DNA from: Parvivirga hydrogeniphila | Lineage (GTDB): Bacteria; Actinomycetota; Coriobacteriia; Anaerosomatales; Anaerosomataceae | NCBI RefSeq assembly: GCF_023371205.1 | Contig: NZ_JAMCCO010000002.1 | Span: 435,501-499,500 of the forward strand | Length of the DNA stretch: 64,000 nucleotides | Direction: 5' to 3' | Shown here: piece after piece, positions 24,425 to 52,696 of the stretch | How positions within the stretch are numbered: position 1 is the first letter of the stretch | Layout: every line of letters starts with the position of its first letter | Notes under the pieces: model-generated | What the model was told of the DNA's origin: nothing | The model's input: only the letters and a program-made list of their open reading frames with translations | Databases searched by the model: none | Program-made: the position numbers and the translations under genes

Positions 24425-24655
24425 TCGCTGAGCGAATGCGTATGCTAGCACGTGCGCCCGCGTCGCGCAACCCCGATTCCGCCGGCCACTCGTCGCCCGC
24501 CGCTACCGCTCGCGCCGCAATCCTGCCGCTCGTCGTCGGCATTGCCGTTCATCGCCCCGTTTGTGCCTTCCGGAACATGGCTGCTCAGGCGGGTAATCTC
24601 TCGTCCAGTATCGCCCGATAATACGTGACGGAGGTATGTACACGGACGGAGCTGT

Positions 24656-25342
24656 ATGACGCTTTCCGCACGCACACCGCTTCTCGTGGCGCTGGCCGTC
24701 GCTCTCGCTGCCACGGCCTGGCTCACGCTGCGCCAGGCGGCCCCGATCGCCACGCCCGAAGGACCGCCGAGCGCGCCCGCGAAGTCACCGGCCATCGCCC
24801 CGTCCGGCAGCGCGACGGTCGACCCTGCCGTCGCAGAACGCCTCGCCGATCCCATCGCGGTGCCTCGCGATGCTGTCGCCGCCGTCGCCGCAAAGGGCGT
24901 CGGCTCGCTCGGCGCGAACGATCGCGCCGCGTACGAGCGGTACGTGGCGCACGTCGAAGACGCTGTCCACAACGACGCCTCCACGATCAAGGCCATGCTC
25001 GGCGACTACACCTCAGCGCTCGCGCGCAGAGACCTCGACGCCCTCGTGGCGATGTGGGCCTCCGACGAGGGCACCGACCCCCGCGCCGCCGCGGCCGCTC
25101 GCATCGACTCGCTGCCGCAGATCGTGAGCGCGAGGCCGCAGCAGACGGTCACGGCGTTCGCAGTCGGTGCAACCACCGTGTACGTCGGCTATGCGGTCGT
25201 CGTCTGGCGCGACGGCGGCGTCGACTCGGAGCACACCATCGCCGTGCCGATGCGTCGCACCGCGTCGGGCTGGCGGCTGACCGGGCTCGATCCGACACGC
25301 GTCCCGAGCTCCGTCGTTGTGACCACAGTCACAGGCATATAG
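24656..25342 (+). CDS. Exported protein with NTF2/SnoaL-like C-terminal domain
   Basis: A 228-residue protein of unknown function. Residues about 8-24 form a hydrophobic signal or anchor, followed by a Pro/Ala-rich linker (about 30-60). Residues about 115-225 (DYTSALARRDLDALVAMWASDEG ... VYVGYAVVVWRDGG ... SGWRLTGLDP) look like a SnoaL/NTF2-like alpha+beta domain, often a ligand-binding or scaffolding unit. The start is ATG after GGAG. It lies 37 bp before the cytochrome gene on the same strand and may be co-transcribed. The 230 bp between the tRNA and this gene hold no other gene that can be supported. Confidence 0.6.
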   Translation: MTLSARTPLLVALAVALAATAWLTLRQAAPIATPEGPPSAPAKSPAIAPSGSATVDPAVAERLADPIAVPRDAVAAVAAKGVGSLGANDRAAYERYVAHVEDAVHNDASTIKAMLGDYTSALARRDLDALVAMWASDEGTDPRAAAAARIDSLPQIVSARPQQTVTAFAVGATTVYVGYAVVVWRDGGVDSEHTIAVPMRRTASGWRLTGLDPTRVPSSVVVTTVTGI

Positions 25343-25379
25343 AATGGTACGCGCGCACCACGAGCCGGAGGTGGAGAAG

Positions 25380-28300
25380 ATGCATGGCGACCAGCGGATC
25401 CCGAGAGCAGCGCTCATGACGCTTGCTGCAGCGCTCGCCATCTCGCTGGCGGCCCCAGCGCTCGCAGCGACGCCGACGCAGCCCGTGCTGCGCGACGTGT
25501 TCGTCACGCCACGAGCCAGTCTCGTCACCTCTCCGACCGTGACGGTGCAGTGGAGCGCATCCACGGACGCGTCCGGTCACGCGCTCGTCTACGACGTTTA
25601 CCGCGACGTCATCCCGATCACCGGCGCCACCATCATCTCGCGCGGCCTGACGCCGGTCGCCTCCGGCCTGACGGGGACGAGCGCGCAGATCAACGCCGCT
25701 TCGGCCGAGACCACGCAATCGTACGTGTGGTTCTACGCCGTGGTCGCACGCGACTCGCTCGGCACGAAGTCGGCGCCGTCTTTCAACATGGCGCCGAACA
25801 TGCACGGCAATCGCAGCGATCCGAACCAGATCTCCTGTCCGCGCTGCCACCGGGTGCACGGCGCGTACCGGGTCGACTATCACCTCAAGGAGGCGTGCTA
25901 CTACTGCCACGGCTCCACCGGGGCGAACTTCGCCACCGGCGCGAAGAGCACGTACAACACCGAGGCGTCCTTCTTCGACACCTGCACCGCGACGGCCGGG
26001 TCCAAGCACCGGAACACGTACATGACCTCAACCAAGCAGGAGTGCACCGCGTGCCACACGCCGCACCGCTCGCCGTTCTTCTACGACGCCGCAGGCGTGT
26101 ACCAGGCGTCGCAGAGCTACCGCCGCATGCTCCGCATCGAGTACGCGACGAACACCTACGAGTACTACAGCCGCAACGACAACCCCGGTGGCAACGCGTT
26201 CTGCTTCTCGTGCCACGGCTCGACGGCCGTCACCTGGAACGGCAAGACCATCAACGCCCAGCAAGCGATGAGCATCGCGGGCGGCACGAGCGCGTATGCG
26301 AACGCAGGCGGCGACCACAACTACGCCGGATACGCGAGCGCGGCGCACGGACCGTCAACGGTGCTGACGAACACCACCGAGCCGAACCCGGGCATCCAGT
26401 GCCTCGCGTGCCACAACAAGCACGCAAGCCGCGCCGACAAGCTCGTGGACTACCGGTCGCAGAACACCACCGCCTCGCAGACGGGCGGCGCGGACATCTG
26501 CTTCGCGTGCCACTCCGCGACCTCGACCGACACGCGCATCGCCGGTTCGGCGGCGCCGTTCTCGTGGAACGGCCGGGACGTGAAGGCGCAGTTCACGAAC
26601 AGCGCCACCTACATCTCGCGGCACCCGTACCGGATCGTCGCCGGCTCGTGGGTGACCGACACGATGACGGTGCTTTCCCACACGACGAAGTCCGAGTTCG
26701 ACACGTACTCGCTCGTCAACGCCGCCACCACCGATTCCGCGGGCGGCGAGATCCAGCTCGCCCAGTACACCACCTCGATCCAGGTGCCCGTGGTGTTCGG
26801 CATGTCGGGCGGCAGCACCACCTTCGACGAGTACACGCCGAGCGCGAATGCGTGGAACACGCTCTACAACCCCGCCAGCAGCACGCTGGGGTGGAGCCCC
26901 GGAAGCGGCTCGAGCGCATTCGTCGTCAACAACCGCGTCTACATCACCCGCGGAGGCAGCAACACCACCCAGGGCTACTACGACATCTCCAGCAACTCCT
27001 GGAGCGCCGGCCAGGCGCTCCCGAACTCCATCGGCCAGGGCGGCGACACCGCCGTGAATCCGCGCTCTGACTCCACCTGCGTATACTACACCCGCGCGAA
27101 CGGTCAGTCCGCCATCATGTGGTGGAACTACACCGGCACCGGCACGGGCTCGTTCAACTTCCAGACCGGCGGCTCTGCAAGGACCCTCGGCATCGGATCG
27201 GCAATCGCGTTCGCGCCGGTGGCCAACCGACTCTTCGTGATCTACCAGTCGGGCACCAACGGCGATGGACGCCTGTACTACAGGTCCTCGCCAGGCCGCT
27301 CAACGACGTCTGTTGACTTCACGCAAGGGGTCCAGGTGACCAGCGATGTGAACACGCGCTACGCCCGCATGACGTACTTCACCAAGAACGGCACCGAGTA
27401 CCTGATGATCGTCGGCCGTGACACCGGAGACAACCGTGACACGATCATCGTCTCGAACCTGGCTGGGACGCCGACTATCACCAACCTCAACATCGATCCG
27501 TTCGGAGCCGATCTCGGCGACGGCTGCGACCTCGAGTGGGACGGCGGCGACTACATCTACGCGATCCGCGGCGGCGGCCAGGCAGGCTTCGCCCGGATTC
27601 TCATCCCCGACGATCCCGCGAGCGCGGCCTCGTGGGACGCCTGGCAGTCGCTCGCCAACCCCCCGTGGGGCTCCAACTGGAACACTGGCTCGTCCATCGC
27701 TCCGGCGGCCTACACGACGACAGGGCTCGCGTACCGAACAAGCGGCACCGCGACGACCCCGGATATCACGCCTGACGCGTCCGTGCATCACTGGGGCACG
27801 GTGTCGTGGACCGAAGATGAGCCCGTCGGGACGGGCCTGCGCGTCAGCGTGCTCGGTTACAACGGCTCCTCGTGGACGACGATCGCAGCGTCGGTCGATG
27901 ATAGCCCGATCAGCCTCGCCGCGTACGCCACCAGCGCATATCCGAGGATCCGCCTGGTCGCCGAGCTTTCCACGAGCGACAATCAGAAGACGCCGACGCT
28001 GTACGACTGGACGGTCACGGGCCTCTACGACCGGTACGTCACCGCGACCGGATCGCTCACCTGCGCGAACTGCCACAACGTGCACTACGTCGGGAAGGGC
28101 ACGGCGGGCACCGCGTGGAGCATGGCGCGGGCGAGCGACCCCGACAACACGAAGCTCGCAGCGCCCTCCTCGCCCACCGACTTCTGCCTGCGCTGCCACG
28201 ACGGCGCGGCTGCTCCCGCTACGACGACGGCGACCTCCATCGTGCCGTACTCCGCGGCGTTCAGAGACGTGACGGCCCCCTTCTTCCCCGGGTGGAACAA

Positions 28301-29624
28301 GGCGGCCTCCGGCGTGGACTTCGCCTCGAGCGGCCACAAGGAGACCACGATCCAAAAGCTCACGGGTCAGTTCGGCTGCCAGACCTGCCACGACCCGCAC
28401 GCGTCGCAGAACCAGCGCCTGACCGCTATCACGCAGATCCCTGACGGCTCCACGAGCACCGGCCACCTCAACGTCTCGCGCGACAACAGCACCACGTGGT
28501 CGGAGCAGGCGCTCTGCTACGGCTGCCACGACGGACGACGCAGCGGCACGTGCTCGTCGACCGGCTGTCACAACACCGACATGAGCTGGCTCAACGTCTC
28601 GGGCGCCTTCGGCCAGACCTACCGTCACCCCGTGGAGCGCTCCGGCCGTCACACCGACACCGAGACCGCCTCGCAGCTCGGCGCCTCGAACCGCCACGCG
28701 GAGTGCGTGGATTGCCACGATCCGCACGTCGCACGGCGCGGGCGTCACACCACCGGCAGCTCGCTTGCAGGCGAGGTCTTGCGCGGTGCCACGGGCGTGA
28801 AGCCGACGGCGTGGCCGAGCAACTGGACGGCGGTGCCTTCCGGCAACTGGACGACAGAACGGCTGAACGGCGAGACCTCCGACTACGAGGCGTACCTGTG
28901 CTTGAAGTGTCACAGCTCGTACAGCGGACAGCCGTTCACGGCGACCCGCAGCAACAACGCAATCTACACCTCTACAGACCAGGCGCTGGAGTTCAACCCG
29001 AGCAACTTCTCGTACCACAACGTGCTCGGCCAAAGCACCGGCATGCAGTCGAGCTTCACCTTCGTCGACAGCGGCGGCACCACGCGCAACGTGACGTGGG
29101 CGGTGCCGACCGTGAGCTTCTTCGTGAGCGGGTCGTCGTGGACCGTGAACTCGATGATGACCTGCACTGAGTGCCACACCAACTCCACCGCAAGCGCGAA
29201 GGGCCCGCACGGCTCGAGCGTCGAGTGGCTGCTCGACCCCAACTACACCACCGACTGGAAGACCGCATACCTGAGCAACACGACGAACGGCATGAGCTCG
29301 ACGACGATCATCTGCGCGAAATGCCACGACCTGAACGGCCCATCCGGCACGTGGAGCAACAACGTGCACTCCACGGGAGACCACCAGGGGAACTTCACCG
29401 ACGGTGGCTGCGTGAAATGCCACATCAAGATTCCGCACGGGTGGAAGCGGCCGCGACTGTTGGTGCGGGTCACTGCAGACGGAACGTATGCGGGCAGCAG
29501 CTCCGGCCTGACGGCCGTCGGCATCTCGAACATCACGCTCAGCGGCGGGCAGGCGCAGTGGAGCAAGAACAACTGCTCCACGAACTGCGGTGAGCACGGC
29601 TCGATATCGCCGTACTGGCCGTGA
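25380..29624 (+). CDS. Secreted 16-heme c-type cytochrome with propeller-like insertion
   Basis: A 1414-residue protein from ATG 25380 (GGAGG eight bases upstream; an in-frame ATG at 25344 lacks such a site and would spoil the signal peptide). Order: signal peptide ending near ALAA, a fibronectin type III-like domain (about 35-140), six CxxCH motifs (residues about 153-378), a heme-free region (about 430-890) with Kelch-like FGMSGGSTTFDEYTPSANAW and a lectin-like part, then nine CxxCH plus one CX4CH (CSSTGCH, about nt 28551) to residue 1348. The many hemes suggest long-range electron transfer outside the membrane, such as to minerals or partner cells. No sortase motif or C-terminal membrane segment is seen. 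Confidence 0.9.
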   Translation: MHGDQRIPRAALMTLAAALAISLAAPALAATPTQPVLRDVFVTPRASLVTSPTVTVQWSASTDASGHALVYDVYRDVIPITGATIISRGLTPVASGLTGTSAQINAASAETTQSYVWFYAVVARDSLGTKSAPSFNMAPNMHGNRSDPNQISCPRCHRVHGAYRVDYHLKEACYYCHGSTGANFATGAKSTYNTEASFFDTCTATAGSKHRNTYMTSTKQECTACHTPHRSPFFYDAAGVYQASQSYRRMLRIEYATNTYEYYSRNDNPGGNAFCFSCHGSTAVTWNGKTINAQQAMSIAGGTSAYANAGGDHNYAGYASAAHGPSTVLTNTTEPNPGIQCLACHNKHASRADKLVDYRSQNTTASQTGGADICFACHSATSTDTRIAGSAAPFSWNGRDVKAQFTNSATYISRHPYRIVAGSWVTDTMTVLSHTTKSEFDTYSLVNAATTDSAGGEIQLAQYTTSIQVPVVFGMSGGSTTFDEYTPSANAWNTLYNPASSTLGWSPGSGSSAFVVNNRVYITRGGSNTTQGYYDISSNSWSAGQALPNSIGQGGDTAVNPRSDSTCVYYTRANGQSAIMWWNYTGTGTGSFNFQTGGSARTLGIGSAIAFAPVANRLFVIYQSGTNGDGRLYYRSSPGRSTTSVDFTQGVQVTSDVNTRYARMTYFTKNGTEYLMIVGRDTGDNRDTIIVSNLAGTPTITNLNIDPFGADLGDGCDLEWDGGDYIYAIRGGGQAGFARILIPDDPASAASWDAWQSLANPPWGSNWNTGSSIAPAAYTTTGLAYRTSGTATTPDITPDASVHHWGTVSWTEDEPVGTGLRVSVLGYNGSSWTTIAASVDDSPISLAAYATSAYPRIRLVAELSTSDNQKTPTLYDWTVTGLYDRYVTATGSLTCANCHNVHYVGKGTAGTAWSMARASDPDNTKLAAPSSPTDFCLRCHDGAAAPATTTATSIVPYSAAFRDVTAPFFPGWNKAASGVDFASSGHKETTIQKLTGQFGCQTCHDPHASQNQRLTAITQIPDGSTSTGHLNVSRDNSTTWSEQALCYGCHDGRRSGTCSSTGCHNTDMSWLNVSGAFGQTYRHPVERSGRHTDTETASQLGASNRHAECVDCHDPHVARRGRHTTGSSLAGEVLRGATGVKPTAWPSNWTAVPSGNWTTERLNGETSDYEAYLCLKCHSSYSGQPFTATRSNNAIYTSTDQALEFNPSNFSYHNVLGQSTGMQSSFTFVDSGGTTRNVTWAVPTVSFFVSGSSWTVNSMMTCTECHTNSTASAKGPHGSSVEWLLDPNYTTDWKTAYLSNTTNGMSSTTIICAKCHDLNGPSGTWSNNVHSTGDHQGNFTDGGCVKCHIKIPHGWKRPRLLVRVTADGTYAGSSSGLTAVGISNITLSGGQAQWSKNNCSTNCGEHGSISPYWP

Positions 29625-46868: not shown

Positions 46869-46880
46869 GGCTGCGTCGCC

Positions 46881-46919
46881 GACGAACGGCTGCCAAGCGG
46901 CACAACTGTGCCGTTCGTC
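46881..46919 (+). terminator. Nested hairpins after UPF0210; outer arms match LytTR-like sites
   Basis: Outer 10-bp arms GACGAACGGC (46881-46890) and GCCGTTCGTC (46910-46919) compete with an inner hairpin CGGCAC (46898-46903) / GTGCCG (46908-46913). Either could end the UPF0210 transcript, although no T tract follows. The right outer arm is also the conserved upstream box of the next promoter, so these may be protein-binding sites instead. Confidence 0.4.
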
Positions 46920-46977
46920 ACGTTATTCCGACATTCGGCAGAAACCGCTGTGAGCGGGTCTCGCGCGTACCGATATA
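46911..46977 (+). promoter_or_regulatory. Promoter P1 of the surface-protein regulon
   Basis: Upstream box CCGTTCGTCACG (46911-46922) and -10-like CCGATATA (46970-46977), start to start exactly 59 bp apart, as in P2 and P3. Between them TATTCCG...CGGCAGA is shared with P2. No usual -35 is seen, which fits an activator-dependent promoter. Confidence 0.6.
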
Positions 46978-47017
46978 TGGGACAACTGCCCGGACAGGAC
47001 AGCGCCGGAAGGCTTCG

Positions 47018-49693
47018 ATGAGACCCCGTGGATCCCGCATACGCACCGCGGCCAAGCGCCGCTACAAGCGCCCGCGCTCCGGCGCGCTCGCGCTCGCGCT
47101 CGTCGTCACGCTGCTTGCTCCCGCGCTCCCCGGCCTGGCGCTCGTTCGGACGACGATCGCCATCGACGGGGCCTTCGATGACTGGGCGCGTGTGTTCGAA
47201 GACCCGGCGAACTGCGTCTACGACGCCAGCGGCGATTCCTCGAGCGCGAACACCGACCTCACCGTGCTTGCCGCGACCTACGACGGCACGTACCTGTACC
47301 ACTACATCCGCCGCGCAGCGACCGGCGGCGGCGCCGCAGCGCCTACCTACACCGTCTATCTCGATCTCGACGGCGACGGCCGCATGGAGAGCACGGACAT
47401 GGCGGTCGTCTACAAACTCACTGGAGGCAACGCCTTTTCGTCCGGCACGCTCTACCGCTACGTCCCAGCCGACGCGACCAACGGGGATCCGATGCCGGGC
47501 GACGCCGGAAAGCCCGCAGGCGCGCTCGGCACGCAGGTCCCAGCCGCCATCGCTGGCGCGGGTGCTTCGGGCGGCGTCGAGCTCGAAACCTGCATCCCAT
47601 GGAGCGCGCTCGGCGTGCCCTCTGACACACCCGTGGGGATGCAGTTCACGTCCGCCCTCGGCAGCGCAACTGACAGCGCAGGCGTCATCTTCATGCGTCG
47701 ATACGGCGTTTCGCTCGACCCAGACCGCGCTTCCGGCGCGTCGGCAGACACCACCGTGACCTACGTCCACACCCTTACCAATCTCGGGAACACGCCTGCG
47801 ACCTTCGACCTCTCGGCGTCCTCGTCGAAACGGTGGCCGGTGACCATCACGATCGCTGCGACCGGCGAGACGGTCACCAGCGTGACACTCACACCAGGTG
47901 CGTCGTTGGAGATCGCCGTGCTGTTGCACGTACCCGCGAACACGCCGGACGGCACCCGTGACACGCTCACGGTCACAGCGACGCACGGCCAGGCAGACGG
48001 CGTATCGGATACGGCAACCGACATCACCAGCATCGGACCAGTGCTCATCATCCCCGACCAGTACGGATCGATGGCTCCGGGCCAGACGATCGCCTACCGC
48101 AACACCGTTACGAACAACACCGAGGAAACGCGCACCATCGCGCTCTCGGCATCATCGGACAAGGGCTGGCCGGGCGAGATCCGCGACGCAGACGGCGCGT
48201 CTACCGTCACGTCGCTCACGCTTGCGCCGCACGAAAGCAGCACCGTCACCGTGCTGGTGACGGTGCCGTCGGGCGCAACGATCGGCACAGTCAACGTCAC
48301 GACCATCGCAGGCCAGGTCGTCGGCTCGCCCAACCTCAAGGGGAAAGGCTACGACACCACCACCGCACGCGCGGCGCTGAGCGTCAGCCCGGTTGCCGCT
48401 TCCGCTCCTGCGGGCGCGGGCAGCACGGTCGCGTACCGACACACGGTGCAGAACAGCTGGCCGACCACCCGCACGATCTCGCTTTCGGCGGCATCGTCGT
48501 GCGGCTGGACGGTCCAGATCCTCGCGTCTGACGGCCTCACCCCGATCTCGACGCTCACGCTCGGGCCGAACGGCGAAGCGGCCGACGTCATCGTGAGGGT
48601 CCGCGTCCCGGCAGGCACGCCTGCGGGCACCATCGACGACACCACGCTCACCTGCACCGCGGGCCCGCACACGGCGACTGCCGCCGATCGCACTACGGTG
48701 AGCTCCCTCGCGACCTACGGCGTGGGCGGCTTCGGCGCTCCGCAGAACACCTTCCAGCTCGGCGATACAGTGTATGCGCGCGGCATGGGGCTGGCTGCCG
48801 GCACGCAGGTGCGGTTCCGTTGGTCGGATCCCTCGGGCACCGTCGTCCGCACCTCGAACCTCATCAACGCGGACTCCACTGGCATCGCACAGGACGCGTG
48901 CGTCATCCCTGCAACGGAGCCGATCGGCACCTGGACGGTCACGCTCCTCAGCAGCACCGGCACGGTCATCGCCAGCGTGCCGTTCTACGTCGGGTACCGG
49001 GCGAACATCAGCGCCATGACCGTCTCGGGCGGAGATGCCGTGGAATCCACGCTCACGATCGCCACCACATTCGAGAACGAGGGCGCCGTGCCGCTCGCGG
49101 ACACTGCGGCCCAATGGGTGATCTGGCGCGACGAGGACTCCGACGGAACCTTCGGTCCGGGCGACGGCTACCTCGCGCCTGACGGCTCGTGGGCGGTGTA
49201 CGGATCGGGAGACGGGTACACCCACGAGACAGCGGGGATCGCCGTCGGCACAGGCGCTGCCACGCTCGTTTCGTGGACGGCTCCCACCATGAACCTTCCG
49301 TCTGCAGGCGAGTACCGCCTCAGCGCCACGTGGACGGCCTCGACGGGCATGACGATCGCCACCGCTGCCACGACGTTCACCGCCGTTCCCGGCGCCCCCT
49401 GGATCGAACTCACGCTCTCGGAGAACGCGATCGACTTCGGCACCGTCGTGCCGGGCGTCGTCTACGAGCATCCGAACCTCGGCGTGCTCGTGCGCGCGAA
49501 CGTCACCTTCGACCTCGTTCGCACGCTCAGCGGCCCCGCGTCTGCCCTGGGCCTCTCGACGCAGCTCGGTTCGCTGTTCAGCCAGGCGAGCGGCGAGCGG
49601 ACGTACACCGACGCTGTCAGGATCGACGTTCCGTGGGACACCGACCCTGGAAGCTACAGCGCCGAGGTCGTCTACACGGTGATCGCACGATGA
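47018..49693 (+). CDS. Large secreted repeat protein with NEW3/DUF11-like beta domains
   Basis: An 891-residue protein from ATG 47018 (GGAAGG five bases before). After a signal peptide (about 20-42), an IDGAFDDWARV ... VYLDLDGDGRMESTDM domain resembles DOMON/CBM9-like ligand-binding folds. Three beta repeats of about 100 residues follow (TYVHTLTNLGNTPATFDLSAS; AYRNTVTNNTEETRTIALSA; AYRHTVQNSWPTTRTISLSA), like NEW3/DUF11 surface repeats, then a CARDB-like part and a last domain (AIDFGTVVPG ... YSAEVVYTVI) similar in plan to the small protein encoded next. It is a candidate cell-surface or fibre protein under promoter P1. No LPxTG or membrane anchor is seen. Confidence 0.75.
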   Translation: MRPRGSRIRTAAKRRYKRPRSGALALALVVTLLAPALPGLALVRTTIAIDGAFDDWARVFEDPANCVYDASGDSSSANTDLTVLAATYDGTYLYHYIRRAATGGGAAAPTYTVYLDLDGDGRMESTDMAVVYKLTGGNAFSSGTLYRYVPADATNGDPMPGDAGKPAGALGTQVPAAIAGAGASGGVELETCIPWSALGVPSDTPVGMQFTSALGSATDSAGVIFMRRYGVSLDPDRASGASADTTVTYVHTLTNLGNTPATFDLSASSSKRWPVTITIAATGETVTSVTLTPGASLEIAVLLHVPANTPDGTRDTLTVTATHGQADGVSDTATDITSIGPVLIIPDQYGSMAPGQTIAYRNTVTNNTEETRTIALSASSDKGWPGEIRDADGASTVTSLTLAPHESSTVTVLVTVPSGATIGTVNVTTIAGQVVGSPNLKGKGYDTTTARAALSVSPVAASAPAGAGSTVAYRHTVQNSWPTTRTISLSAASSCGWTVQILASDGLTPISTLTLGPNGEAADVIVRVRVPAGTPAGTIDDTTLTCTAGPHTATAADRTTVSSLATYGVGGFGAPQNTFQLGDTVYARGMGLAAGTQVRFRWSDPSGTVVRTSNLINADSTGIAQDACVIPATEPIGTWTVTLLSSTGTVIASVPFYVGYRANISAMTVSGGDAVESTLTIATTFENEGAVPLADTAAQWVIWRDEDSDGTFGPGDGYLAPDGSWAVYGSGDGYTHETAGIAVGTGAATLVSWTAPTMNLPSAGEYRLSATWTASTGMTIATAATTFTAVPGAPWIELTLSENAIDFGTVVPGVVYEHPNLGVLVRANVTFDLVRTLSGPASALGLSTQLGSLFSQASGERTYTDAVRIDVPWDTDPGSYSAEVVYTVIAR

Positions 49694-49754
49694 AGCGCAG
49701 ACCGACACGCCTGTTGCACTTGCCGCGAGATGCTCCGCTCATCTCCGCTGTGTG

Positions 49755-49821
49755 CCGCTCGTCACGCTATTCCGCCGCACGGCAGACGAGCGTCAAGCGG
49801 GGTGGTGCGTAGGCCGATACA
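49755..49821 (+). promoter_or_regulatory. Promoter P2 of the surface-protein regulon
   Basis: Box CCGCTCGTCACG (49755-49766) and CCGATACA (49814-49821), again 59 bp apart. An inverted repeat GGTGCGT/ACGCACC encloses the -10 region (49804-49827), and CGCTCGTC/GACGAGCG (49756-49792) flanks the middle. The leader to the next start codon is about 70 bases. Confidence 0.6.
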
Positions 49822-49898
49822 CGCACCAGAAGGCCACAGGGCCGAAAGACTCGGAAGAAAGCCCAGGAAGGGCATAGGAAAAAAGAAAGGGACCTACC

Positions 49899-50309
49899 AT
49901 GAAGAGGACGATTCTGATCGCAGTCGCAGTCGCGGCGCTCGTGTTCGGCGTCGTGGCCTACGCGAACGCCGCCACCAGCGGCACGGTCACCGTGAGCGCC
50001 ACTGTGCAGCCGCAGATGGAGATCACCGTGCCGGCCACCGTCGATCTCGGCGCCGTGGATCCGTACACGCCCGCTTCGGGCACCGTGACGGTAACCGGCA
50101 AGTCCAACAAGACAGCGACTCTCTCGGCCTCGGTCGATCCGGGCACCTTCACCACGCTGAGCAGCACCGCTGCAGCTGCGACGCCGATCGCGTGGGGCAA
50201 GGGCGGCAACCTCTCCTACGACGATACGGTCACCGGAACGGTCGACTGGAGCATCGATGCTGGCACGGTCGTGAGCGGCCAGGTCACCTACACGATCGCG
50301 CAGCCGTAG
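49899..50309 (+). CDS. Small secreted beta-sandwich (WxL/pilin-like) protein
   Basis: A 136-residue protein from ATG after AAAGGGA. A signal peptide (about 1-24, ending ANA) precedes a Thr/Val-rich beta domain (SGTVTVSATVQPQMEITVPA ... ATVDLGAVDPYTP ... SGQVTYTIAQP), the pattern of WxL or fimbrial subunit folds, though no WxL motif is present. High Thr/Ala content and no Cys. Its own promoter (P2) and terminator make it a single-gene unit that could be made in large amounts. Function unknown. Confidence 0.7.
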   Translation: MKRTILIAVAVAALVFGVVAYANAATSGTVTVSATVQPQMEITVPATVDLGAVDPYTPASGTVTVTGKSNKTATLSASVDPGTFTTLSSTAAAATPIAWGKGGNLSYDDTVTGTVDWSIDAGTVVSGQVTYTIAQP

Positions 50310-50331
50310 CACCCGCACAGACGTACCGACG

Positions 50332-50364
50332 AGAAGCCCCTGCTGACGCGGGGGCTTCTTCTTT
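50332..50364 (+). terminator. Rho-independent terminator
   Basis: AGAAGCCCC (50332-50340) pairs perfectly with GGGGCTTCT (50351-50359) across a 10-base loop and is followed by TCTTT. It ends the transcript of the 136-residue secreted protein. Confidence 0.85.
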
Positions 50365-50407
50365 GCGCCCAGATCTATCTCGCCACATCCCGAAGCACTC
50401 CGAAAGG

Positions 50408-50476
50408 TACCGTTCATCAGATAAACGGTATGCGTAGCCGTTTATCGCTCAAATCCTACCGTTTAGTGCCGATATA
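50408..50476 (+). promoter_or_regulatory. Promoter P3 with four LytTR-consensus sites
   Basis: Box CCGTTCATCAGA (50410-50421) and CCGATATA (50469-50476), 59 bp apart. Four matches to the LytTR-type site ACCGTTNAT/G occur: 50409-50417, 50421-50429 (reverse), 50437-50445 (one mismatch) and 50458-50466. The last two are in direct orientation 21 bp apart, the spacing known for LytTR dimers. The regulator gene lies 1.1 kb away. Confidence 0.7.
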
Positions 50477-50504: not shown

Positions 50505-50801
50505 ATGAAGCGGGCCACGAAGATCGCAGCAGCGGTCACAGCTGGGATCCTTGCGGCGCTCCTCGTCGCCTCCACCGCCACGGGAACAAGCGGCACCGCG
50601 ACCATCACCGCTCGCGTCCGGGCGTTCGCAGCCGTCACCCAGACCGATGCGCAGCACGTGCTCGTCAAGGCGAACACACCGTGGACGCTCGAGGTCGTCA
50701 CCGCGACCGGTCACAGGATGCGCATCGAGGGCGCCAAGACCACCGGGACCCCGGTCGAACTGCCCGACGATGCGGTCGCCTACTCTGTGGCGTGGGACTG
50801 A
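50505..50801 (+). CDS. Small secreted protein
   Basis: A 98-residue protein starting MKRATKIAAAVTAGILAALL (signal peptide about 1-27) after GGAAGGAGG. The mature part (TATITARVRAFAAVTQ ... WTLEVVTATGHRMRIEG) is short and beta-rich and shares the GTxTITARV opening with the 136-residue neighbour. Expressed from P3 with a short leader. It overlaps the convergent DUF916-like gene by 22 bp. Function unknown; probably a partner or subunit in the same surface structure. Confidence 0.65.
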   Translation: MKRATKIAAAVTAGILAALLVASTATGTSGTATITARVRAFAAVTQTDAQHVLVKANTPWTLEVVTATGHRMRIEGAKTTGTPVELPDDAVAYSVAWD

Positions 50802-51844
50802 TCGGGGTCGTCGAGCTCCACGAGCTCCCTCTGCGCACGACGCGCCTGCTCACGACGTGCTTCGCGCCGCTCTCGCTCGATCTTGCGCATCGCGGCCTTC
50901 ACGCTCGCACGCCACGACGCCCATATCGCAAAGCCGCCTGCGACCACGACCACGGCGATCGCCAGCCACAAGGGCACCACCCATACAGTGCGCTGCTCGG
51001 TGAGGCGCTCCGGGATGTCCGTCTGCGCGCCCTCCCGCGGGTACTCGACGTCCAGGCGCACGGTGTACTTCCCGAGCATCGTCCCGCCTGGCCGCAGGAC
51101 GCCGGCGTTCTCCGATATGGCTCCGGCGTACACCGTCGTCTCCGTCGCCTGCTGGCTCACCAGCTCGCGGCCTGATGGCGCCTGGAGGGTGACCGTTGCC
51201 CGCACGATCTTGTCGATGTTCCCCTCGTTGCGCACGGCATACGAGTACGGCACGCGGTCGCCGATGATGAACGAGCGCACGACGAACGGCTTGATGAGCA
51301 GCCGCTCCACGATCTCGCCCTTCACACGGATGTGGATGCGCGACGCCAGCCGTCCCGCCACCACCGCGTGCGCCTTGTCCGCGCTCACGTTCTTCGGCGG
51401 CGCCATCTCGAAGAACAGCAGGATCTGGTGGTCCCCGGGTGGGACGCCTTCCGGCACCTCGAAGGTGAACTCCACCTGCTTGCGCTCGTTCGGAGCCAGC
51501 TCGATGTACGGGACATTGCCGCGCGATTTCATCTCGCTCGACATCTTCACCTGCAGCCACGAGGCAGGGTTGTCGATACCGCCCATCTCGCCCGGTTTCG
51601 GTATCTCGAAGGAGATGCGCCCTTCCTCGTCAACGACTTGGTTTCCCGCGTAGATGAAGACCTCGATCGGCTCCTTGCTCGGGTTCATGACGATGACCGA
51701 GCCCTCGCCCTTCTGCCCGGCCGCGACCTGGAACTCGAACGAGCCTGTCGAGAGCGCCAGCGTGCGTTCCGCGGACGCTGCAGCGGGCGCAAGCAAGACG
51801 AGCGCCGCTACCAGCAACGCAAGCCCGCGCCCCATCGCTCTCAC
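50780..51844 (-). CDS. DUF916-like (WxL-interacting type) membrane protein
   Basis: A 354-residue protein; GTG 51844 overlaps the regulator stop (GTGA), ATG 51835 is the alternative. Signal peptide (about 1-25), two beta-sandwich domains (FEFQVAAGQKGEGSVIVMNPSKEPIEVFIYA; PGDHQILLFFEM; VPYSYAVRNEGNIDKIVRATV), one C-terminal membrane helix (about 292-312) and a highly charged cytoplasmic tail. This is the plan of DUF916/DUF3324 proteins that bind peptidoglycan and WxL proteins at Firmicute surfaces. Its place beside the small WxL-like genes supports that role. It is co-expressed with the LytTR regulator. Confidence 0.72.
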   Translation of the reverse strand: MRAMGRGLALLVAALVLLAPAAASAERTLALSTGSFEFQVAAGQKGEGSVIVMNPSKEPIEVFIYAGNQVVDEEGRISFEIPKPGEMGGIDNPASWLQVKMSSEMKSRGNVPYIELAPNERKQVEFTFEVPEGVPPGDHQILLFFEMAPPKNVSADKAHAVVAGRLASRIHIRVKGEIVERLLIKPFVVRSFIIGDRVPYSYAVRNEGNIDKIVRATVTLQAPSGRELVSQQATETTVYAGAISENAGVLRPGGTMLGKYTVRLDVEYPREGAQTDIPERLTEQRTVWVVPLWLAIAVVVVAGGFAIWASWRASVKAAMRKIERERREARREQARRAQRELVELDDPDQSHATE

Positions 51845-52584
51845 AGCCCCACCGCTTCCTTGAACTGCTTGAGGTGGCGCCGCGCGACGGGGATCTGGGT
51901 CTCGTCGCGGTCCATCACCACCACGACGAACGCGCCGTCGACGCGCAGGATCTCCTTGATCTTCTCGAGATTCACCATGAAGCTGCGGTGGACGCGCTCG
52001 AACCGCTCTTTTGCCAGCCGCTCTTCGAGCTCTGTGAGCGTCAGGTCGACGAGGTACTGGTTCTCGTAGGTGTGCACGTACGTCGACTTGTTCTTCGCTG
52101 AGATGTACACGATGTCGTCGATGCCGAGAAGCACCGTCCGCCCGCCCTTGCGCACAGCGAGCTTCCGGAACTCGCTTTCGCCGTCACGCACGCGCACGGC
52201 AGCACGCGGCCGCGTCTTCGCGAGGCTCTGCACGCGCGCGGAGAGCTCCATCAGGTTGAACGGCTTCGTCACGTACTGCTGGACGCCTTGCTTGAACGCC
52301 AGGATCTTCGCGAGGTCCTGCGTCTTGGCCGTGAGCATGATGACCGGGACGTCGGCGGTCTCCGGATTGTTCCTGATCTCCATGAGAGCCATCCAGCCGT
52401 CCACCCTGGGCATCATGATGTCGAGCAGGATGACGTCCACCGCCTCGCGTGCGAGCACGTCCAGCGCTTCTCCACCGTCCCCCGCAGACAGCACCTTCAT
52501 GCCGTCCGCCTCGAGGCCCATACGGATCATGTCGACGATGGCCGGGTCGTCATCGACCACGAGCACGGTGATGGGCTCGTCCAT
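51841..52584 (-). CDS. LytTR-family response regulator (orphan)
   Basis: A 247-residue regulator. The receiver domain (about 5-120) has the acidic pocket Asp11-13, phosphoacceptor Asp55 (ILLDIMMP) and Lys of VTKPF. The C-terminal LytTR domain (about 145-245: IDDIVYISAKNKSTYVHTY; RVHRSFMVNLEKIKEI; DETQIPVARRHLKQFKE) binds direct repeats and usually controls surface or signalling genes. No histidine kinase is nearby. The downstream gene is translationally coupled. LytTR-type sites in P3 and the shared boxes in P1 and P2 make it the likely regulator of the adjacent secreted proteins. Confidence 0.92.
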   Translation of the reverse strand: MDEPITVLVVDDDPAIVDMIRMGLEADGMKVLSAGDGGEALDVLAREAVDVILLDIMMPRVDGWMALMEIRNNPETADVPVIMLTAKTQDLAKILAFKQGVQQYVTKPFNLMELSARVQSLAKTRPRAAVRVRDGESEFRKLAVRKGGRTVLLGIDDIVYISAKNKSTYVHTYENQYLVDLTLTELEERLAKERFERVHRSFMVNLEKIKEILRVDGAFVVVVMDRDETQIPVARRHLKQFKEAVGL

Positions 52585-52696
52585 CCGCGATCCTTCCGAC
52601 GACCGGATTCCGCCCGTTCAGGCCGCTCATCCCCCAGAAGACACCGACGAGCGCGCCCGCCGTGCGGCGAGTATACCGCACGTCGCACGATGGCCG

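Follow-up and report, generated by a model that had tools for sequence, protein, structure and literature searches.

The present analysis concerns the promoters of a surface-protein cassette in a stretch of 64,000 nucleotides from Parvivirga hydrogeniphila (hereafter the window), a member of the Coriobacteriia with a genome of 1.84 Mb in 9 contigs and a G+C content of 67% in the window. The cassette comprises three genes for secreted proteins, each with its own candidate promoter (P1, P2 and P3), a gene for a WxLIP-like membrane protein and a gene for an orphan response regulator with a LytTR domain; a fourth candidate promoter, P4, lies farther upstream (Table 1). Judged by the regulator protein, the closest named relatives are Coriobacteriaceae bacterium EMTCatB1 (96%) and other metagenome-assembled genomes, several of which are labelled Anaerosomatales, an order whose members in culture are non-motile rods (PMC9686372). 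The comparison of these promoters suggests that, in these non-swimming anaerobic actinobacteria, cell-surface equipment is switched on jointly by a single regulator and a single sigma factor.

A surface-protein cassette and its orphan regulator

The products of the P1, P2 and P3 genes each start with a hydrophobic N-terminus that resembles a signal peptide. The small P2 protein has a homologue in the C-terminal domain of the large P1 product (hhalign 98%, E 1.9e-13). The fold of the P2 product appears similar to immunoglobulin (Ig) domains and chaperone-usher pilins, but the matches were found only at Foldseek E 2e-3 and Z up to 8.4, came from mixed families and no function was inferred from them; the fold search with the P3 product gave no clear match. 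The WxLIP-like protein has one membrane span besides its signal peptide and is a single-span extracellular Ig-like protein. As in the WxL clusters (PMC10599100), a small secreted domain protein, a large protein ending in that domain and a WxLIP-type anchor thus occur together. However, the W-x-L motif was not found in the P2 product or in the C-terminal domain of the P1 product, neither PF13731 nor DUF3324 was matched, and the regulator operon lies on the opposite strand. By its genes the cassette therefore resembles a WxL cluster in layout, without being classed as one. In two relatives, homologues of the large P1 protein are encoded on the opposite flank of the regulator gene (L049, 7427-5022; L067, 2319-97).

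The regulator combines a receiver domain (PF00072, 96.6 bits) with a LytTR domain (PF04397, 93.5 bits). The initial annotation had placed its gene next to the promoters, which holds at the level of the gene cluster, the WxLIP-like gene (50780-51844, minus strand) intervening before the P3 gene. No histidine kinase gene was found beside the regulator gene (51841-52584), which differs from the AlgR-type arrangement with an adjacent cognate kinase. D55 and the acidic residues of the receiver are retained, so that an unlinked kinase is likely to phosphorylate it. Counts made by hand from the search tables showed the WxLIP gene in 41 of 61 genomes; the regulator was present in all 41 and adjacent in 40 of them. 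Among the 20 genomes lacking the WxLIP gene, 14 retain the regulator, and the other six lack both.

The 5' leader of the regulator gene carries a LytTR box of its own. This box, in inverted orientation, was found at −66 to −42 in 32 of 47 loci (0.006 expected per locus), including 8 of the 13 loci without the cassette, which indicates that the regulator travels with the LytTR word even where the surface genes are missing. It is situated downstream of a SigA-like TATACT, an arrangement that is conserved across the order and that suggests self-repression or feedback. LytTR regulatory systems (PMC6193735) likewise have a membrane protein gene after the gene for the LytTR regulator and regulate themselves through repeats. 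In contrast to those systems, the box at this locus lies downstream of the −10 element; moreover, they combine a LytTR regulator with a membrane inhibitor, apart from two-component systems, whereas here the regulator has a receiver domain and its partner spans the membrane once and is an extracellular Ig-like protein. The genome encodes a second LytTR regulator (C1:363789) with its own kinase gene adjacent.

A conserved 59-bp promoter layout

According to the initial annotation, the sequence CCGYTCRTCA starts exactly 59 base pairs (bp) before CCGATA in front of three genes for secreted proteins. This was borne out at P1 (CCGTTCGTCA at 46911, CCGATA at 46970), P2 (CCGCTCGTCA at 49755, CCGATA at 49814) and P3 (CCGTTCATCA at 50410, CCGATA at 50469). 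The genome scan for CCGYTCRTCA-N49-CCGATA that had been proposed returned three matches, namely P1 to P3, while 0.003 are expected in the genome from base composition. Over the whole genome, no further match to the fixed-spacing pattern appeared with 0 or 1 mismatch, and the reversed pattern gave 0 matches at 0 mismatches. A match at C1:671154, obtained when gaps of 46-52 were allowed, was dropped because its offset of 61 bp represents an unrelated element with another spacing, and a match at C2:357783 was dropped because it lies inside a coding sequence.

Since the motif was derived from P1 to P3 themselves, the relatives provide the independent test. In 99 relatives the exact pattern occurred 20 times versus 0 for the reversed control; 18 of these matches reside in the homologous cassette and the other two at G039:C12 and G032:C11. 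Near the homologous regulator genes, the upstream word that scored best within a 16-bp search range had an offset of exactly 59 bp in 25 of 33 promoters. When the upstream block alone was used as anchor (27 fixed bases, GTGCC-N5-TCACACTATTCCGCCGTACGGC, at most 4 mismatches), CCGATA was found at +59 in 14 of 15 hits and CCGATG in the remaining one. Shared ancestry lowers the number of independent events behind these counts. Nonetheless, the flanking sequences are intergenic and have diverged, and by this measure the CCGYTCRTCA and CCGATA elements are under selection. Judged from these comparisons, the 59-bp architecture is real, extends across the Anaerosomatales and is not a product of chance.

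The promoters of the cassette can be divided into two classes. Class A consists of P1 and P2, where the boxes follow each other in steps of about 20 bp and CCGATA comes after them; at P2 they are positioned at −79 and −59, followed by a block at −40 to −31 that is centred 35.5 bp before CCGATA, one more 20-bp step after the −59 box. Class B consists of P3, with boxes at −59, −31 and −10 and an additional inverted one. The four LytTR sites attributed to P3 at the outset were all recovered, those at 50438 and 50459 being 21 bp apart. When a TAAA-like −35 element was sought at about 15 bp, P3 showed TCAA-N15 and P2 TCAA-N16, and P1 showed none.

P4 is located between tRNA-Met and the gene for a 228-residue protein, 25 kb upstream of the cassette. 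Its boxes at 24526 and 24545 form the best chain in the window on either strand at steps of 19-22 bp, scoring 26.4 versus 25.0 for P2; 0.025 chains scoring at least 24 are expected per strand. In P. hydrogeniphila and in the homologous operon of two congeners (L205 and L206), the distance from the start of the last strong box to CCGATA is exactly 70 bp. As 70 equals 59 plus about one helical turn, this distance agrees with a protein that has to be oriented towards the polymerase. The cassette had originally been regarded as a self-contained regulon, a view that cannot be maintained in light of this fourth promoter of the same kind before a multiheme-cytochrome operon and of the retention of the regulator in most genomes without the WxLIP gene.

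Table 1. Coordinates of the genes and of the predicted regulatory elements in the window.
Feature	Position	Strand	Description
P4 LytTR-like boxes	24486..24553	+	24486, 24506 (weak), 24526, 24545; steps of 20, 20 and 19 bp
P4 WhiG-like promoter	24594..24620	+	TAAT-N17-CCGATA (24594/24615)
P4 gene 1	24656..25342	+	228 amino acids, membrane-anchored or secreted protein
P4 gene 2	25344..29624	+	1426 amino acids, multiheme cytochrome c, 15 CxxCH
P1 inverted LytTR-like box	46889..46897 (approximate by a few bases)	-	CCGTTCGTC, reads GACGAACGG on +; about −90 of P1
P1 LytTR box	46911..46919	+	CCGTTCGTC; start 59 bp before the −10
P1 putative −10	46970..46975	+	CCGATA, preceded by A; −35 not recognisable
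P1 gene	47018..49693	+	891 amino acids, secreted, Ig-like repeats; Pfam FixG_C, NPCBM_assoc
P2 distal LytTR box	49735..49743	+	CCGCTCATC; 20 bp before the −59 box
P2 LytTR box at −59	49755..49763	+	CCGCTCGTC
P2 proximal conserved block	49774..49783	+	GCCGCACGGC (GCCGTACGGC in relatives)
P2 putative −10	49814..49819	+	CCGATA (GCCGATA); TCAAG-N15 upstream, 1 bp longer than in the pilin promoter
P2 gene	49899..50309	+	136 amino acids, secreted Ig/pilin-like beta-sandwich protein
Hairpin and T run	50331..50365	+	probable terminator separating the P2 and P3 genes
P3 LytTR box at −59	50410..50418	+	CCGTTCATC
P3 inverted LytTR box	50420..50428	-	GATAAACGG on +
P3 LytTR box at −31	50438..50446	+	CCGTTTATC
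P3 putative WhiG-type promoter	50449..50474	+	TCAA-N15-GCCGATA
P3 LytTR box at −10	50459..50467	+	CCGTTTAGT; between −35 and −10
P3 gene	50505..50801	+	98 amino acids, secreted all-beta protein
WxLIP-like membrane protein gene	50780..51844	-	overlaps the end of the regulator gene; PF06030 (WxLIP_PGBD) 29.3 bits, cutoff 27.3
Regulator gene	51841..52584	-	orphan response regulator, receiver and LytTR domains, D55 conserved
LytTR box in regulator leader	52623..52631	+	GATGAGCGG on the regulator's strand

LytTR-like boxes and a probable WhiG −10 element

The box CCGYTCRTC contains CCGTTCGTC, the core site of AlgR (PMC4064291). LytTR operators are built of 9-bp direct repeats with mostly 12 and sometimes 11 or 13 bp between them (PMC6193735), and the boxes of P2 and P3 show a corresponding spacing of 20 and 21 bp from start to start. 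In 69 genomes, two copies of CCGTTCRTC separated by any gap of 8-30 were found 26 times versus 4 times in the control, and 16 of these 26 pairs were 20-22 bp apart from start to start (binomial 1e-8, or 2e-7 without overlapping repeats). One relative carries four CCGTTCGTC boxes in a row at steps of 20-21 bp (G066:C15:2959-3028; L197/L203/L204). The tandem boxes elsewhere in the relatives precede assorted genes, among which no common theme was found. In Pseudomonas aeruginosa, AlgR is likewise a LytTR response regulator that recognizes the core box and controls surface structures, including pilin-like genes (PMC4064291); it differs from the present case in phylum, in its adjacent kinase, in the fixed tandem spacing seen here and in the sigma factor involved, and the likeness does not imply orthology at the sequence level. 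With the AlgR core word, the 20-22 bp clustering and the box in the regulator's leader all pointing the same way, the initial reading of these elements as LytTR sites is supported, and we predict with high confidence that the CCGYTCRTC boxes are such sites.

Because the −10 element also resembles the sigma-28 form GCCGATA, a check for a sigma-28 gene had been suggested. The genome indeed encodes a FliA/WhiG protein (TIGR02479, 285 bits; cutoff 189.6), the only one above this cutoff, which also exceeds that of the WhiG equivalog NF004935 (369.5 bits; 343). Among proteins of solved structure, the closest to it are the WhiG-type sigma chains 6pfj and 6pfv (2e-92), the sequence DELRALDW[VI]PRSVR being nearly identical. 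WhiG scored above the cutoff in 58 of 61 relatives and FliF was found in 0 of 61 genomes, from which it follows that WhiG does not serve flagella. The −10 expected for WhiG/FliA is GCCGATAA-like, and all four promoters contain CCGATA. The resemblance to GCCGATA applies to P2 and P3, where G precedes CCGATA, but not to P1, where this base is A.

The type IV pilin genes offer a standard for comparison. Of 30 loci from the order, 28 have T[AC]AAG-N14-GCCGATA in front of the pilin gene, a few with one base less or T before CCGATA, while the background amounts to 0.08 CCGATA per 330 bp. In most relatives the pilin promoter shows the full form TAAA-N15-GCCGATA. The pilin gene of P. hydrogeniphila itself has TCAAG-N14-GCCGATA with a nearly full −35 (G000:C2:82069-82094; L145), and several second pilin-like genes near the type IV pilin gene also have a WhiG-type promoter. 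LytTR boxes are missing from the pilin promoters, save for weak words that apparently belong to the last part of the coding sequence upstream. At least three of the four TAAA letters were present in the −35 of 28 of 28 pilin promoters, but in only 5 of 20 class A cassette promoters versus 115 of 1450 shuffles (Fisher 1e-8 for pilin versus class A, ignoring shared ancestry). The class A −35 is thus little better than shuffled sequence. P3 is intermediate between class A and the pilin promoters in this respect, and in the relative L041 it reads as a perfect TAAA-N15-GCCGATAT. A genome-wide scan for TAAA-N15-GCCGATA was by itself not enriched (8 versus 6 in the control); one perfect match is located at C1:311484, between citrate-synthase-like and kinase genes. 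Taken together with the pilin standard, CCGATA is very probably the −10 element of WhiG. For Rubrobacter, it has been inferred that type IV pili are expressed under WhiG, with promoters of the form TAAA/GCCGATAA (PMC8325347). Both cases involve WhiG in a unicellular actinobacterium and TAAA/GCCGATA promoters at type IV pilus genes, whereas the present order has in addition a second promoter class with a poor −35 and LytTR boxes, whose targets are the surface cassette and the multiheme cytochrome. The elements, their spacing and conservation, the sigma factor and the regulator are established by this comparison.

Proposed mechanism and its alternatives

The LytTR sites and the sigma-28 form were initially put forward as alternative explanations. 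Both are supported by the present data, and it is preferable to view them as complementary parts of a single mechanism. We propose that P1 to P4 are WhiG promoters in which the −10 is intact and the −35 is poor, P1 having none, P2 and P4 having one at an unsuitable distance and P3 matching in three of four letters. WhiG would supply −10 recognition everywhere, its own −35 contact sufficing at the pilin genes. At P1 to P4, the LytTR regulator would bind the CCGYTCRTC direct repeats 20-21 bp apart in a fixed helical phase, their starts lying 59 or 70 bp before CCGATA, and the bound array would recruit the WhiG-RNA polymerase and supply the missing −35 contact, making these promoters activator-dependent. 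We infer which protein binds, the sign of regulation and the signal from gene context and promoter architecture: the binder is probably the receiver-LytTR protein of the cassette, which probably also controls itself through its leader box, and it would probably act as an activator and not as a repressor. The output would be cell-surface equipment, consisting of secreted beta proteins as in WxL clusters, the WxLIP-like anchor and the multiheme cytochrome operon. As the component steps are not independent, we assign a probability of about 0.55 to the whole model, in which WhiG and the cassette regulator jointly drive P1 to P4.

A precedent exists in Escherichia coli, where CRP, positioned at −49.5, activates two sigma-28 promoters, aer and trg (PMC2859248). 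There too, a sigma-28 promoter is assisted by a classical activator placed at a set distance upstream, equal at both promoters, and the proximal block of P2 would be centred near −47.5 if the start were placed as at aer. The two systems differ in that the present one involves the LytTR family, tandem boxes and conservation across an order, and in that aer still needs its TAAA −35 whereas class A has none above chance.

Several observations weigh against the proposed mechanism. Two genomes in which the search did not find the cassette-type regulator, G042 and G057, contain one tandem site each, and the second LytTR regulator with its own kinase may bind the same word. It is nonetheless unlikely that this second regulator, or both together, uses the boxes with the cassette regulator a mere neighbour, given that the latter stands beside the WxLIP gene in nearly all genomes that have this gene, that its leader carries the box across the order, and that the six genomes without it also lack the WxLIP gene. 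The retention of the cassette regulator in cassette-less genomes implies further functions for it, and the relatives revealed no second target that they share. The position of the leader box downstream of a SigA-like −10 would be more in keeping with repression, and the boxes of P3 that reach into the −35/−10 spacer (50459-50467) may mean repression there as well. An arrangement in which WhiG drives the promoters and LytTR binding represses them, especially P3, nevertheless appears improbable to us, because with a class A −35 no better than chance they would be weak promoters without help, and because the boxes at −59 and −70 with their tandem 20-bp steps occupy activator positions.

A further difficulty is that the base before CCGATA outside the genus is mostly C and not G. 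Combined with the absence of a class A −35, this means that the assignment of CCGATA to WhiG rests on its identity with the pilin promoter. CCGATA might then be part of a larger operator instead of a −10, with the housekeeping sigma factor starting elsewhere, and in some relatives (L045, L050, L079) a CCGATAAACGG stretch does overlap an inverted box. We regard this as highly doubtful, since type IV pilin genes throughout the order are preceded by GCCGATA with a full TAAA −35, the sequence that follows CCGATA at P1 and P2 is free to vary, and P3 of L041 is a perfect TAAA-N15-GCCGATAT.

If the proposed mechanism is true, it provides a direct activator of sigma-28-family promoters conserved across an order and the first testable regulatory rule for the Anaerosomatales. 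To our knowledge, the LytTR family has not been seen to pair with a sigma factor of the WhiG/sigma-28 type. Few activators acting directly on sigma-28-family promoters are known (PMC2859248). More tentatively, the order may possess two grades of WhiG promoters, a complete one for type IV pili and one in which the degenerate −35 is replaced by a helically phased LytTR regulator, so that the cell would produce surface proteins and multiheme cytochromes only if WhiG coincided with a phosphorelay signal, as part of a coordinated programme for mineral contact or extracellular electron transfer. Pili, surface proteins and a multiheme cytochrome would then be tied to one sigma factor; in one cultured member of the order, pili-like appendages formed solely during growth with ferrihydrite and were missing with soluble iron (PMC9686372).

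Some minor features of the promoter regions should be mentioned. The inverted repeat GACGAACGG...CCGTTCGTC at 46880-46919 directly follows a DUF711 gene and may represent either two paired operators or the stem of a terminator. The hairpin and T run between the P2 and P3 genes indicate that P3 probably heads its own transcription unit. An Rfam scan of the region for riboswitches returned no family at the gathering score. The P2 leader (49820-49898, about 80 nucleotides) forms two short local hairpins in most relatives; as the alignment gave three pairs, none with a compensatory change, no claim of a conserved fold is made. Outside the cassette, G053 (L201, C49:4245-4285) has a box CCGTTCATCACAC at a distance of 60 bp from a downstream GCCGATA, and the membrane protein gene that follows is possibly a further target.

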